Shown: one piece after another, positions 9,258 through 57,827 of the stretch
Layout: every line of letters starts with the position of its first letter
Position numbering within the stretch: the stretch's first letter is position 1
DNA from: Clostridia bacterium
GTDB lineage: Bacteria; Bacillota; Clostridia; Oscillospirales; CAG-272
NCBI GenBank assembly: GCA_017464565.1
Contig: JAFTZH010000029.1
Coordinates: forward strand, 1 to 64,000
Direction of reading: 5' to 3'
Length of the DNA: 64,000 bases
Made by a program: the position numbers and the translations under genes
The notes under the pieces: generated by a model
What the model saw: only the letters and a program-made list of their open reading frames with translations
What the model was told of the DNA's origin: nothing
Databases searched by the model: none

Positions 9258-9480
9258 GGGGGAGGAGCTTTTTGCAAAAAGCTCCTCCCCCAAACCCCCT
9301 CCGCAAAAATCTTAAATGTTTTGGGTTTAATCTTGGATTTTTGCTTTACTTCCTACTGAGTATGCCGCAATCCGAAGTAAGCTCTATGTAGAAAGCAAGG
9401 TGAAATTCTAAAATCATACCCAACGTTTAAACGTTTTTGAAGAGGGGTTAGGGGAGAAACTTTTGTAAAAGTTTCTCCCC
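9258..9480. repeat. Composite inverted-repeat element, copy A (full)
   Basis: Fills the convergent junction between the SGNH gene and the surface-protein gene. Left hairpin 9258-9291 (GGGGGAGGAGC / GCTCCTCCCCC around TTTTTGCAAAAA), then an arm with ACCCCCTCCGCAAAAAT and TGGGTTTAAT, a centre around 9345-9395, a complementary arm with ATACCCAACGTTTAAA and TTTTTGAAGAGGGGT, and right hairpin 9451-9480 (GGGGAGAAAC / GTTTCTCCCC). The whole element can fold into one long stem. The terminal hairpins are followed by A/C-rich sequence rather than a T run, so they are not standard terminators. Confidence 0.8.
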
Positions 9481-27016: not shown

Positions 27017-27291
27017 GGGGGAGGAGCTTTTTGCAAAAAGCTCCTCCCCCCAACCCCCTTCGCAAAAATCTTAAATGTTTTGGGTATAGTTTTAAATTTT
27101 TGCTTTACTTCCTGCGGAGAGCTTATTTTAGGTATTTACCATACACGGTAGGGGAGGGGCTTGTGTATGATAAAAAACCGAATTAATCTTTTTGTAGAAA
27201 GCAAAACAAAAAGCTAAATCCATACCAACCGTTTAAAGTTTTTTGAAGAGGGGGGTTGGGGGAGGGACTTTTTTCAAAAAGTCCCTCCCCC
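27017..27291. repeat. Composite inverted-repeat element, copy D (full)
   Basis: Left hairpin 27017-27050 (GGGGGAGGAGC / GCTCCTCCCCC), inner arms (CAACCCCCTTCGCAAAAAT...TTTTGCTTTACTTCCTGC and GTAGAAAGCAAAACAAAAAGC...CCGTTTAAAGTTTTTTGAAG), a centre containing CCATACACGGTAGGGGAGG, and right hairpin 27258-27291 (GGGGGAGGGAC / GTCCCTCCCCC). The left hairpin and its first arm bases match copy A, the centre matches copy F, so the copies mix shared modules. Occupies a convergent junction. Confidence 0.8.
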
Positions 27292-35955: not shown

Positions 35956-36648
35956 ATGTTGGAGGAGCTTAAAGAGAGAGTCTTTTTGGAAAATCTCAAG
36001 CTTGTGAAAAACGGGCTCGTCGTGCTGACGTGGGGGAACGTCTCCGCAATTGACAGGGCACGCGGTCTTGTCGTAATCAAGCCGAGCGGAGTGGATTATT
36101 CGGTTATGAAGGCAGAGGATATGGTGGTCGTCGATATGAACGGCAATACGGTTGAGGGAGATCTCAGACCGTCTACCGACCTTCCGACTCATCTGTATCT
36201 TTATCGGGCGTTTCCCGAAATAGGAGGCGTGGTACATACTCATTCGGTGAACGCGTCGGTTTGGGCGCAGGCGGGGCGTGATATTCCCGCTTACGGAACT
36301 ACGCACGCAGACGTCTTTTACGGAACTATACCTTGTACGAGACCGCTTACCGAGGAAGAAGTTGAGAATGCCTACGAGTATAATACGGGCAAGGTTATAG
36401 CGGGGTGCTTTTCGGAGAGGGATTATCTTGCAACGCCTGCGGCGATAGTGAAAAACCACGGTCCGTTTGTATGGGGAGTTACTCCCGAGAAGGCGGTGGA
36501 GAACGCGGTTACGCTCGAGAGCGTTGCCGAAATGGCTCTCAAAACCGAATTTATCGGCGGAGCAGAAAATGTTGTACCGCAATATTTGCTTGACAAGCAT
36601 TATTTCAGAAAGCACGGAAAACACGCATATTACGGGCAGGAAAAATGA
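35956..36648 (+). CDS. araD: L-ribulose-5-phosphate 4-epimerase
   Basis: 230 residues, full length. Converts L-ribulose 5-phosphate to D-xylulose 5-phosphate. 'TWGNVSAID', 'IKPSGVDY', the zinc His pair in 'VVHTHSVNASVWAQ', 'GTTHADVFYGTIPCTRPLTEEE' split motif, and C-terminal 'DKHYFRKHGKHAYYGQ' are the AraD pattern and separate it from fuculose/rhamnulose aldolases. araA and araB are not in the window. Last gene of the AraC-aldolase-araD group; the repeat region E follows. Confidence 0.92.
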   Translation: MLEELKERVFLENLKLVKNGLVVLTWGNVSAIDRARGLVVIKPSGVDYSVMKAEDMVVVDMNGNTVEGDLRPSTDLPTHLYLYRAFPEIGGVVHTHSVNASVWAQAGRDIPAYGTTHADVFYGTIPCTRPLTEEEVENAYEYNTGKVIAGCFSERDYLATPAAIVKNHGPFVWGVTPEKAVENAVTLESVAEMALKTEFIGGAENVVPQYLLDKHYFRKHGKHAYYGQEK

Positions 36649-36677
36649 AGACCATTCGTGTTCTTCACTCCGTAGAA

Positions 36678-36855
36678 GTTAGTTTGTTTTTTATGTTTTT
36701 ATGTTCATTTTTTGCTGCACGGCAAAAAACGAACCAAAAAAGCGTGCCAAGGGCACTCCCTTGACACGCTTCTTCGCATTTAGGTCGCAGACCTAAATAG
36801 CACTTCATTGTTGTGTAACAAGAAGTGAACATAAAAACATAAAAAACAAACTAAC
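36678..36855. repeat. 178-bp cruciform element with perfect 30-bp terminal inverted repeats
   Basis: Bases 36678-36707 and 36826-36855 are perfect reverse complements over 30 bases. Between them sit four more stems: 36708-36715/36722-36729 (8 bp), 36740-36753/36758-36771 (13 of 14 pairs), 36778-36786/36790-36798 (9 bp perfect), and 36801-36806/36822-36827 with an inner 5-bp helix; the last shares two bases with the outer stem. The unit folds into a multibranched, cloverleaf-like shape, but is not a tRNA. It abuts copy E of the dispersed repeat family. No ORF of note inside. Confidence 0.8.
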
Positions 36856-37030
36856 TAATCTTTTTGTAGGAAGTAAAACGAACACTTAATGCAAAACCCA
36901 AGCTTTAAAGTTTTTGAAGAGGGGTTAGGGGAGAAACTTTTGCAAAAGTTTCTCCCCTGAAAATCCATACATAAACTAACTTTACTGTGGGGGTTAGTGG
37001 GAGGGACTTTTTGAAAAAAGTCCCTCCCAC
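36856..37030. repeat. Composite inverted-repeat element, copy E (right arm, two terminal hairpins)
   Basis: Starts with TAATCTTTTTGTAGGAAGTAAAAC, as in the right arm of copy D, then CCCAAGCTTTAAAGTTTTTGAAGAGGGGT and hairpin 36927-36958 (AGGGGAGAAAC / GTTTCTCCCCT). A second arm fragment and hairpin follow at 36997-37030 (GTGGGAGGGAC / GTCCCTCCCAC). The left arm is missing or replaced by the cruciform at 36678-36855. Lies at the convergent junction of araD and the glycosidase-like gene. Confidence 0.7.
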
Positions 37031-37051
37031 ATAAAACAAATACAAAAATAA

Positions 37052-38974
37052 CTAACTTTGAAAATATCCTTTGTCAGACAAATAATCAAGATAATAGACC
37101 AAAGCCCAATCCTGATCGTTTGCCCACGGGTCTCGGTAAGAGGCGGGATTTCCATTGACCTTAAGAGGGAACAACGTGGCGCAGGTCGCTCTTCCGTCGG
37201 GCGTGAACTGACAGAGCTGACCGCGCAGAGCATCCTCCGCCATATCAAAATACTCACCTTTACCCGACGCTTTGGCGTAATCGTAAAAGGCGTTTGCGCT
37301 GAGTACACTCCAATAGTGAGGGAAGGTGTCGCCGTAAAGTCGGCGCTTTCCGAACCAAAAGCCGTCCCAGTGCCTTATAGCGCACATATACAGATGGTAA
37401 TTCGGCTGTATACCGCTGAAAAGAGACGCGGTGGCAAGCTGTTTTTCGGCTTCCGCAAGATACCGTTCCTCTTTCGTCAGAAAATACATCTGCAAAAGGA
37501 ACTCGGCGGCGGGAGCGACGATGCTCTGCTCGTAGCTTACCTCGTGCGCGGGGTAGTCGGAGGCGTTAGCGATAATTATTTCGGCGTGCTCTCTGAAATA
37601 CGATATCATCTCTTGCTTTCGGTCCTCATATCCCGCCTTGCCGAGCAGAGATATCATTTTAACTATCGGTATCGTAAACGCGTAGAAATTTTTGCCGCCG
37701 AGACGGTAATATTCTCTCAATATATTGTAAGCGTCAAAGAGATATTTTTTATCTCCCTCAAGCTCGTAAAGCTCAAGGAAAAATCTCGTGGGCCACGGAT
37801 AATTGTAAAGGCGGACCTTCGAGTTTTCATAGCCGACGTCGTTACTTACCGTGCCCGTGCTCTCGTCGTATATCTCTCGCTTGAAAAAGGTTACGAACTT
37901 CATCAGCTTCTCGTGAAGATAACCGTATTTTTCTTTTGACAGCTTTTTGCCGTAATGCTTTAGATAAAGCAGAATCAGCAGAGGCATAGCTATTCTTTCG
38001 CGTGAGGAATTTATATCGCGTCTGCGGAAGTCGTAAACGGGCGTGTTTTCCTCGTTGTCATACGAAAGAAAGGCTCCGTCGAGCGAGCTGCCCTCGCAGT
38101 TGAACTGCTGACGCTCCGCCAAAAAAACGCATCTTGCCCGAACTATCTCGTCAAAGCCCTCGGATACGTAATATACGCAGGACGCCGTTTTTCCGTTTGC
38201 CTTGAAAATCAAGTTATGCTCTCCGAGCACGTCCGAACGGGGATTTACCGTGATGACGCTTCCGTTTTGCTCAAACGGAACAGATATGCCGTCAAGTATT
38301 GCCGAGACCGAATACAGCTCGCTTGCGGCGACCGAGGCGCTGACGCGTATATCTTCTCCCTTGAAATAGGTAAAGTGCGAAGAGGTAACGGTTATAAAAT
38401 TCTTTTCTTTCGCAATTATACCGAGGAAATCTTCCTTGCCCTCGTGCCAGAAAAATTTCATTCTTACGGTATAGCTTTGCTTTGGCATAAGGTGAACGAA
38501 GGGCGGGTGAAGAATAAAATCTCCGCGGTCGTTGCTCTTGTTCTCGCGCTCTATGCTGTACGCCGCAAGCTCTCCCTCACAAAGAAGCATTCCGAGATGA
38601 GGGGCGTCTCCCCCCATACGAAGTCCCATAATATACGACGAGCTTCCGCACGTGTTCAGATGTGCGTGGCAGCGCTGCGTCATACATATCGACGCCTTGC
38701 CATAGCTGTCGTTAAAGGGAACGTATATTCCAAGAGCGCCTTTTTGGAGCAGAAGATCGTAATCGTTTTCGTTTGAAAAAGTAACGCAAAGCTCAAGATA
38801 TTCGTTGCCGAGAGTTACCGAGCGGCGTATCTTTACGTCTCCGGGGGCTATCGTGTCTCCGAGCTTGTGCGTACTTTCTATCCAATTCATTCCGTGCTTA
38901 TCGTCGGGATGAACGATACTGCTCAGCTTATTTTCTCTTTCTTCGAGCAGAAAGGATTTTGATTGCATAGTCAT
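37052..38974 (-). CDS. Large cytosolic protein, putative six-hairpin glycosidase
   Basis: 640 residues, no signal peptide; AGGAAAC precedes the ATG. Residues about 1-270 are beta-rich ('VKIRRSVTLGNEYLELCVTFSNEN'), residues about 300-640 are helical with recurring hairpin ends ('YPWPTRFFLELYELEGDKKYLFDAYNIL', 'HWDGFWFGKRRLYGDTFPHYWSVLSANAFY' split by region), the layout of (alpha/alpha)6-barrel glycosidases and lyases. I cannot assign a GH or PL family or catalytic residues. It is 22 bases downstream of a solute-binding protein gene, so it may degrade the imported oligosaccharide. Confidence 0.62.
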   Translation of the reverse strand: MTMQSKSFLLEERENKLSSIVHPDDKHGMNWIESTHKLGDTIAPGDVKIRRSVTLGNEYLELCVTFSNENDYDLLLQKGALGIYVPFNDSYGKASICMTQRCHAHLNTCGSSSYIMGLRMGGDAPHLGMLLCEGELAAYSIERENKSNDRGDFILHPPFVHLMPKQSYTVRMKFFWHEGKEDFLGIIAKEKNFITVTSSHFTYFKGEDIRVSASVAASELYSVSAILDGISVPFEQNGSVITVNPRSDVLGEHNLIFKANGKTASCVYYVSEGFDEIVRARCVFLAERQQFNCEGSSLDGAFLSYDNEENTPVYDFRRRDINSSRERIAMPLLILLYLKHYGKKLSKEKYGYLHEKLMKFVTFFKREIYDESTGTVSNDVGYENSKVRLYNYPWPTRFFLELYELEGDKKYLFDAYNILREYYRLGGKNFYAFTIPIVKMISLLGKAGYEDRKQEMISYFREHAEIIIANASDYPAHEVSYEQSIVAPAAEFLLQMYFLTKEERYLAEAEKQLATASLFSGIQPNYHLYMCAIRHWDGFWFGKRRLYGDTFPHYWSVLSANAFYDYAKASGKGEYFDMAEDALRGQLCQFTPDGRATCATLFPLKVNGNPASYRDPWANDQDWALVYYLDYLSDKGYFQS

Positions 38975-54854: not shown

Positions 54855-55135
54855 GGGGGGAGTGCCTTTTTGCAAAAAGGCACTCCCCCCCAAACCCCCC
54901 TCTTAAAAAAACTTTAAACGTTGGGTTTAATTTTAAATTTTTATCTTGCTTTCTACGGAGAGTTTATTTTGGATTCAACCATACTCGGTAGGGGAGGGAC
55001 TTGCTCTTCCCGTTTCGTTCATATAAAATATACTTCGTGAGGACGACTAAGGCAAAAATTAAATTCATACCCGACTTTTAAAAATTTTTGGGGTGGGGTT
55101 TGGGGGAGGGACTTTTTATAAAAAGTCCCTCCCCC
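54855..55135. repeat. Composite inverted-repeat element, copy F (full)
   Basis: Left hairpin 54855-54890 (GGGGGGAGTGCC / GGCACTCCCCCC), arms (CCCCCCTCTTAAAAAAACTTT...TTTCTACGG and GGCAAAAATTAAATTCATACCC), centre with CCATACTCGGTAGGGGAGGG as in copy D, right hairpin 55102-55135 (GGGGGAGGGAC / GTCCCTCCCCC). The left hairpin core (AGTGCC/GGCACT) matches copy G. Fills the convergent junction of the kinase gene and rplA. Confidence 0.8.
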
Positions 55136-57603: not shown

Positions 57604-57827
57604 GGGGGGAGTGCCTTTTTGCAAAAAGGGCCGCCCCCCCCACCCCCTCTTCAAAAAACTTTAAACGTATTGGATTTAATTTTAATTTTAATTTTTTGTC
57701 TCGTTTCCTACGGAAACCGAATTAAGCTCCCCGTAGGAAGCAAGACAAAAAGCCAAGATTAAACCCAATACGTTTAAAGTTTTTGAAGAGGGGTTAGGGG
57801 AGAAACTTTTGCAAAAGTTTCTCCCCT
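57604..57827. repeat. Composite inverted-repeat element, copy G (full)
   Basis: Left hairpin from 57604 is imperfect (GGGGGGAGTGCC against GGGCCGCCCCCC). The inner arms are the best preserved of all copies: CCCCTCTTCAAAAAACTTT with AAACGTATTGG, down to TCGTTTCCTACGG, are answered by CCGTAGGAAGCAAGAC up to CCAATACGTTTAAAG and TTTTTGAAGAGGGG. Right hairpin 57796-57827 (AGGGGAGAAAC / GTTTCTCCCCT). Lies between the ROK kinase stop and the rpmG promoter, both on the minus strand. Confidence 0.82.

Follow-up and report, generated by a model that had tools for sequence, protein, structure and literature searches.

On balance, we regard the 178-bp palindromic unit at positions 36678-36855 of the window (the whole stretch of DNA analyzed, 64,000 nucleotides) as probably the short form of a non-coding, dispersed mobile element, similar to MITEs and BIMEs, whose folded ends are recognized. 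Its most telling feature is the pseudoknotted ends, which are conserved across the order and invisible in a single copy. These ends constitute the main new finding; a literature search of open-licence PMC papers yielded no account of repeats with pseudoknotted ends from these bacteria, and with this scope the novelty is provisional.

The window copy and its parent element

The structured nature ascribed to the unit by the initial annotation is borne out by folding. The predicted single-stranded RNA fold has an energy of -88.6 kcal/mol compared to -32.5 ± 3.5 kcal/mol for 200 dinucleotide shuffles (z = -16). The inverted repeat it had named (36678-36707 and 36826-36855) consists of perfect reverse complements over 30 bp, and the stems it had drawn inside are all present, namely those of 8 bp (36708-36715/36722-36729), 13/14 (36742-36753/36758-36769; GCGTGcCAAGGG/CCCTTGaCACGC), 9 bp (36778-36786/36790-36798) and 6+5 bp (36801-36806/36822-36827 plus 36808-36812/36817-36821). 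In the minimum-energy fold some of these stems are connected otherwise, with one long outer helix, so that the drawing with four separate stems represents one of two competing folds. No convincing gene was found inside the 178 bp, as had been stated. Two points of the initial annotation have to be revised: the unit is not complete and discrete but a shortened form of an element of approximately 550-640 bp, and the structure extends outward beyond the 30-bp inverted repeat. The 178 bp form the inner portion of a bigger nested palindrome, to which positions 36645-36674 on the left (module T) also belong; the right-hand counterpart is absent. The features of the window copy are as follows.

36645..36674, + strand: module T, hairpin TGAAGACCATTCGTGTTCTTCA...CTCCGTA, flanking the element on its outer left; 100% identical to the module that most copies have outside their A end
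36678..36855, + strand: element, short form, 178 bp
36678..36707, + strand: left end A, 30-bp terminal inverted repeat; perfect reverse complement of 36826-36855
36704..36763, + strand: left arm (hairpin B, A-rich linker, hairpin C); covariance model R1, 60.8 bits, E 2e-12 in the search of the window
36717..36721, + strand: loop GCACG of hairpin B, left pseudoknot strand 1, predicted to pair with 36743-36747; covarying position
36743..36747, + strand: linker CGTGC, left pseudoknot strand 2, predicted to pair with 36717-36721; covarying position
36742..36769, + strand: central hairpin C, left C strand plus right C strand; halves as in loci L006 and L002, joined at CCAAGGG
36778..36798, - strand: hairpin P (ATTTAGGTC-GCA-GACCTAAAT), an insert in the right-arm linker that some copies have and others lack
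36764..36827, - strand: right arm with hairpin B' (36801-36827); architecture as in other arms
36813-36816 (GTGT) and 36764-36767 (ACAC), - strand: right pseudoknot strands
36826..36855, - strand: right end A', 30-bp terminal inverted repeat
36853..37058, + strand: rest of the enclosing repeat, called copy E in the initial annotation, with modules Y and Z, hairpins V and W and an A-like end; from the module map

The element is located between convergent genes. The upstream gene has its stop codon within module T (window 36645-36648; likewise at loci L004 and L019), as if insertion had reset the gene end. To the right of the unit, TAATCTTTTTGTAG matches the repeat at about 27181 (family D7), which is the similarity to copy D that had been noticed before, and the element is indeed of a second type that differs from the first repeat and is joined to one copy of it. 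It may either have taken the place of copy E's left half or have been inserted with loss of the right outer segment.

Searched against the 1.67-Mb assembly of the window's own genome, that of a gut-type bacterium, the 178-bp sequence gave 43 matches and the whole copy C44:6358-6998 gave 83; these are not copy numbers, as many matches are partial or represent both strands of one palindrome. Many further copies, on whose existence the initial annotation had made its proposal hinge, are nevertheless present. The parent element measures approximately 550-640 bp in this genome, with one whole copy lying within a contig (C44). Most copies are cut by contig ends, more than 20 of which lie inside the element, as arises when short-read assembly meets a repeat. 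Such contig ends might be taken as the mark of an assembly artefact, which, like a chance palindrome, we give practically no weight: the z-value of the fold speaks against it, and the presence of whole copies within contigs, both here and in independent assemblies, effectively refutes it.

Comparing the copies side by side gives a module order, from outside to inside, of hairpins V/W/U, modules Z, Y and X, hairpin T, an optional module M of approximately 100 bp, end A, hairpin B, the optional hairpin P and hairpin C. Past hairpin C follow a centre of approximately 330 bp with more hairpins and then the modules in reverse order. The window copy retains T (left only), A, B, C, P, B' and A', and then adjoins Y directly. 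In this copy the left half follows L006 as far as GTGCCAAGGG, and from CACTCCCTTG onward the right half follows L002. The centre has thus dropped out at the common CCAAGGG, and hairpin C marks the site where approximately 330 bp of the parent element are gone. A further short copy (C36:122152-122287) is without even hairpin C. A small peptide of the centre (MIKKIKIKKYY...) was rejected as a gene, since six copies have a stop at codon 3 of its frame and a seventh has the frame shifted. At loci L004, L005, L017, L020, L021 and L057 of the own genome a module of approximately 100 bp starting with TGTCATTCTGAGCGAAGCG lies between T and A, on the left or the right side, and a congener (L067) has a similar sequence.

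What the initial annotation had listed as copies A-F is the enclosing repeat V-Z-Y-X plus its mirror image, which occurs in the own genome both with and without the T-A-core insert; the element is often nested in such older palindromic repeats. Copies without core lie at 9258-9480, 27017-27291, 54855-55135 and 57604-57826 of the window; they carry outer terminator-like hairpins (GGGGAGAAACTTTTGCAAAAGTTTCTCCCC and variants), with Z, Y and X mirrored about the centre. The larger enclosing repeats resemble the smaller ones with extra palindromes placed in the centre. In the congeners the matches to the whole copy fall almost all in the X piece (17 of 29 congeners), and the outermost A-type end, found at 21 places in the own genome, occurs in none of the 29. 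With 57-68% protein identity among the twelve closest matches, the congeners are too diverged for an empty-site comparison.

Pseudoknotted arms

On either side an element ends in an inward-facing arm, which consists of hairpin B, an A-rich linker and hairpin C. The B loop is complementary to the last part of this linker, just ahead of hairpin C, and each end of the element is predicted to fold into a conserved pseudoknot hairpin. Among 106 distinct combinations from three genomes the longest exact match between loop and linker had a mean of 4.23 nt, compared to 2.83 ± 0.09 nt if the linkers were dealt out anew among the loops (z = 14.9; none of 2000 permutations as high). All five pseudoknot pairs were altered on both sides in an alignment of 30 arms, and the covariation score of the whole structure was 0.541, compared to 0.197 for shuffled and at most 0.151 for slid partners; these 30 sequences had been selected for being arms, a choice that biases the result towards the stem and hairpin C. 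The pseudoknot itself is tested more cleanly by the order-wide set, as its covariance model contained the B stem and hairpin C only and ignored the pairing of loop and linker. Here, with the linkers read in a fixed window, the match was 4.0 nt versus 3.03 nt after permutation (z = 7.2; none of 5000 permutations as high). As related copies are not independent, the z-values describe these sets and are not probabilities.

The arms bear on the question whether the sequence acts in the form of a transcript. If it were a multi-copy structured RNA, its pseudoknots and hairpins would serve protein binding or the processing or stability of the transcript, with the DNA copies as genes or leaders of this RNA; we consider this explanation doubtful. 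The covarying pseudoknot, whose first loop of 1-2 nt and A-rich third loop are well known from pseudoknots in RNA, argues for it, as does the long centre conserved in one family. That same arm kinds stand inverted at both ends is something one transcript would not need, and the orientation relative to genes is not consistent. No Rfam family scored above its gathering score, and none matched anywhere in the window; matches of the miRNA type were below threshold and were discarded as chance hits to a long hairpin. The stems are also almost purely Watson-Crick (828 Watson-Crick pairs to 3 G.U and 18 A.C, counts that are not independent), which weakly favours DNA as the acting form. Taken for themselves, folding energies and the counts of G.U and A.C are indecisive between RNA and DNA: the energies are biased by the A-rich linker, and related copies are non-independent.

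The family with the long conserved centre (genus g7; loci L214, L216, L217 and L192) is another one of the order, in which the element measures approximately 465 bp and the identity of its centre is about 90%, among copies as well as among species. To judge by these sequences, this centre appears more conserved than would be expected of a decaying passenger.

For the mobile element, the interchangeability of the inverted ends suggests that one factor recognizes both of them, and this factor probably reads the folded strand, since it is the pairing and not the sequence that is kept. As a more tentative extension, it is possible that we are dealing with an undescribed, order-wide class of dispersed palindromic elements of Clostridia with interchangeable arms, whose ends are defined by a covarying pseudoknot instead of by sequence and are read as a folded strand (single-stranded DNA or RNA).

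Distribution, sites and transposases

With the covariance model, arms were found in 28 of 295 genomes and in 19 of 149 genera of the order. A draw of 300 genomes from the phylum yielded two matches, the window's own genome and another one of the same order; within the genomes sampled the element is confined to the order. A degenerate pattern of the B-C pair hit five loci in three MAGs, SIG644 and SIG718 (both "Oscillospiraceae bacterium") and RGIG5545 ("Clostridia bacterium", sheep colon), and a SIG644 copy used as query gave more than 100 matches each in SIG644 and RGIG5545. Counted at E <= 0.01, the own genome contains 29 arms, SIG644 at least 150, RGIG5545 146 and SIG718 4. On contigs chosen for having hits, inward-facing arm pairs occur every few kilobases and are mostly 240-620 bp apart; inverted pairs at 220-480 bp recur in distant genomes of the order, and across several families the distance is 220-620 bp. 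An exact pattern of the centre had no match in GTDB contigs, and no match to the element was found in phages, plasmids or viral contigs.

In two ruminant-type MAGs, 54 elements were located. They are intergenic, and the orientations of their neighbour genes (16/14/12/12) are close to background, with divergent, tandem and convergent gaps occupied in proportion to their number. SIG644 and RGIG5545 share most sites in the compared stretches, with flanks that are 73-95% identical. At the same site, arms and centres are often of differing types beside nearly identical parts, and at one shared site RGIG5545 has the outer hairpins and no core. Taken together, this indicates that sites are mostly inherited, that modules are exchanged and that the core can be gained or lost; recent movement is rare in these two genomes, as most sites are common to both. 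Two sites without element were found in the comparison, one of which also differs by a gene while the other keeps the outer hairpins. In the region L171:5200-6950 SIG644 has an extra gene and an element, and RGIG5545 has neither (L184:14560-15000). No target-site duplication was demonstrated at these sites, where the boundaries are nested in other repeats and the informative empty site retains outer hairpins.

Sites common to two related genomes, strong intergenic hairpins and the position of the window copy between convergent genes could also be expected of a gene-boundary element (a bidirectional terminator, a stabilizer of mRNA 3' ends or a nucleoid site) that is useful to the host and kept by selection without being mobile. 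This is quite improbable given that all three kinds of gaps are used in proportion to their number, that the A end is absent from the congeners, and that differing arm types substitute for one another at the same site.

The genome-wide transposase search covered the Y1 family. PF01797 had no match in the own genome or in RGIG5545, which carries approximately 150 arms, and RAYT-like genes are present in SIG644 and SIG718 with no arms flanking them; no transposase flanked by arms was seen within the stretches read. The RAYT-like Y1 genes at L186, L187 and L188 (SIG718, SIG644) contain a palindromic repeat GTAGGGGCG...CGCCCCTAC in their reading frames. These results make it unlikely that the element is a member of the REP/BIME group, mobilized by a relative's RAYT (Y1) transposase and with the pseudoknotted arm as an elaborated REP, even though the RAYT-like genes of the two relatives, the inverted pairs of palindromic units in intergenic DNA and a GGTAG beside the hairpin of enclosing module X, reminiscent of GTAG-tagged REPs (PMC3733652), are in agreement with it. 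The GTAG or CGTC tag is not consistent: in the window GTAG stands two bases before the foot, while GTAA or GTAT adjoins the A end in many other copies.

We infer the mobile-element reading from distribution and architecture; the initial annotation had suggested a non-autonomous mobile element, and the element behaves like one. It would spread as a passenger in the manner of a MITE or BIME, its folded single-stranded ends being recognized by an enzyme supplied in trans. Copies would later swap arms and lose their middles through recombination at short repeats, and the window copy probably lost its centre at CCAAGGG in this way, either within a copy of the enclosing repeat or next to one.

Relation to known systems

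With terminal inverted repeats (perfect over 30 bp here, inverted arms elsewhere), no coding capacity and many dispersed copies, the element shares three of the features of MITEs. Bacterial MITEs, e.g. RUP, NEMIS/Correia and Bcr1 (PMC3733652, PMC3049150), likewise have inverted ends, no gene, intergenic dispersal, strong folding and internally shortened copies. They measure 70-300 bp compared to 450-640 bp for the parent of our element, whose ends differ in being a covarying pseudoknot that is exchangeable in sequence, and for which no partner IS was found in a search comprising the Y1 family and the stretches read. REP/BIME sequences with RAYT (PMC3733652) share the palindromic units in inverted pairs, the intergenic location and the mosaic build; the element exceeds them greatly in size, has a long centre as well as pseudoknotted arms, and no RAYT is linked to these. 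The nearest analogues in design, compared by architecture only, are the BOX elements of Streptococcus pneumoniae (PMC3049150), which are also modular multi-copy composite repeats with extensive structure, ends and optional internal modules. BOX elements belong to another host group and contain tandem boxB modules, whereas the element has nested palindromes and inward-facing pseudoknotted arms.

Among ribozymes, the loop-linker pairing of the arm has a parallel. In the Pistol ribozyme the loop of a hairpin pairs with the stretch that leads to the following hairpin, which the arm resembles; the arm has a longer first stem and no recognizable cleavage core, and Rfam gave no match.

Dispersed repeats of bacteria are usually recognized by a conserved sequence. 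Here a pairing rule is kept while the sequence varies, in at least 19 genera, and some genomes hold about 150 or more arms. The repeats explain breaks in the assemblies of such genomes and deserve annotation in genomes from gut and rumen. They also raise a testable question, namely whether a protein recognizes the folded strand, and which protein this would be.
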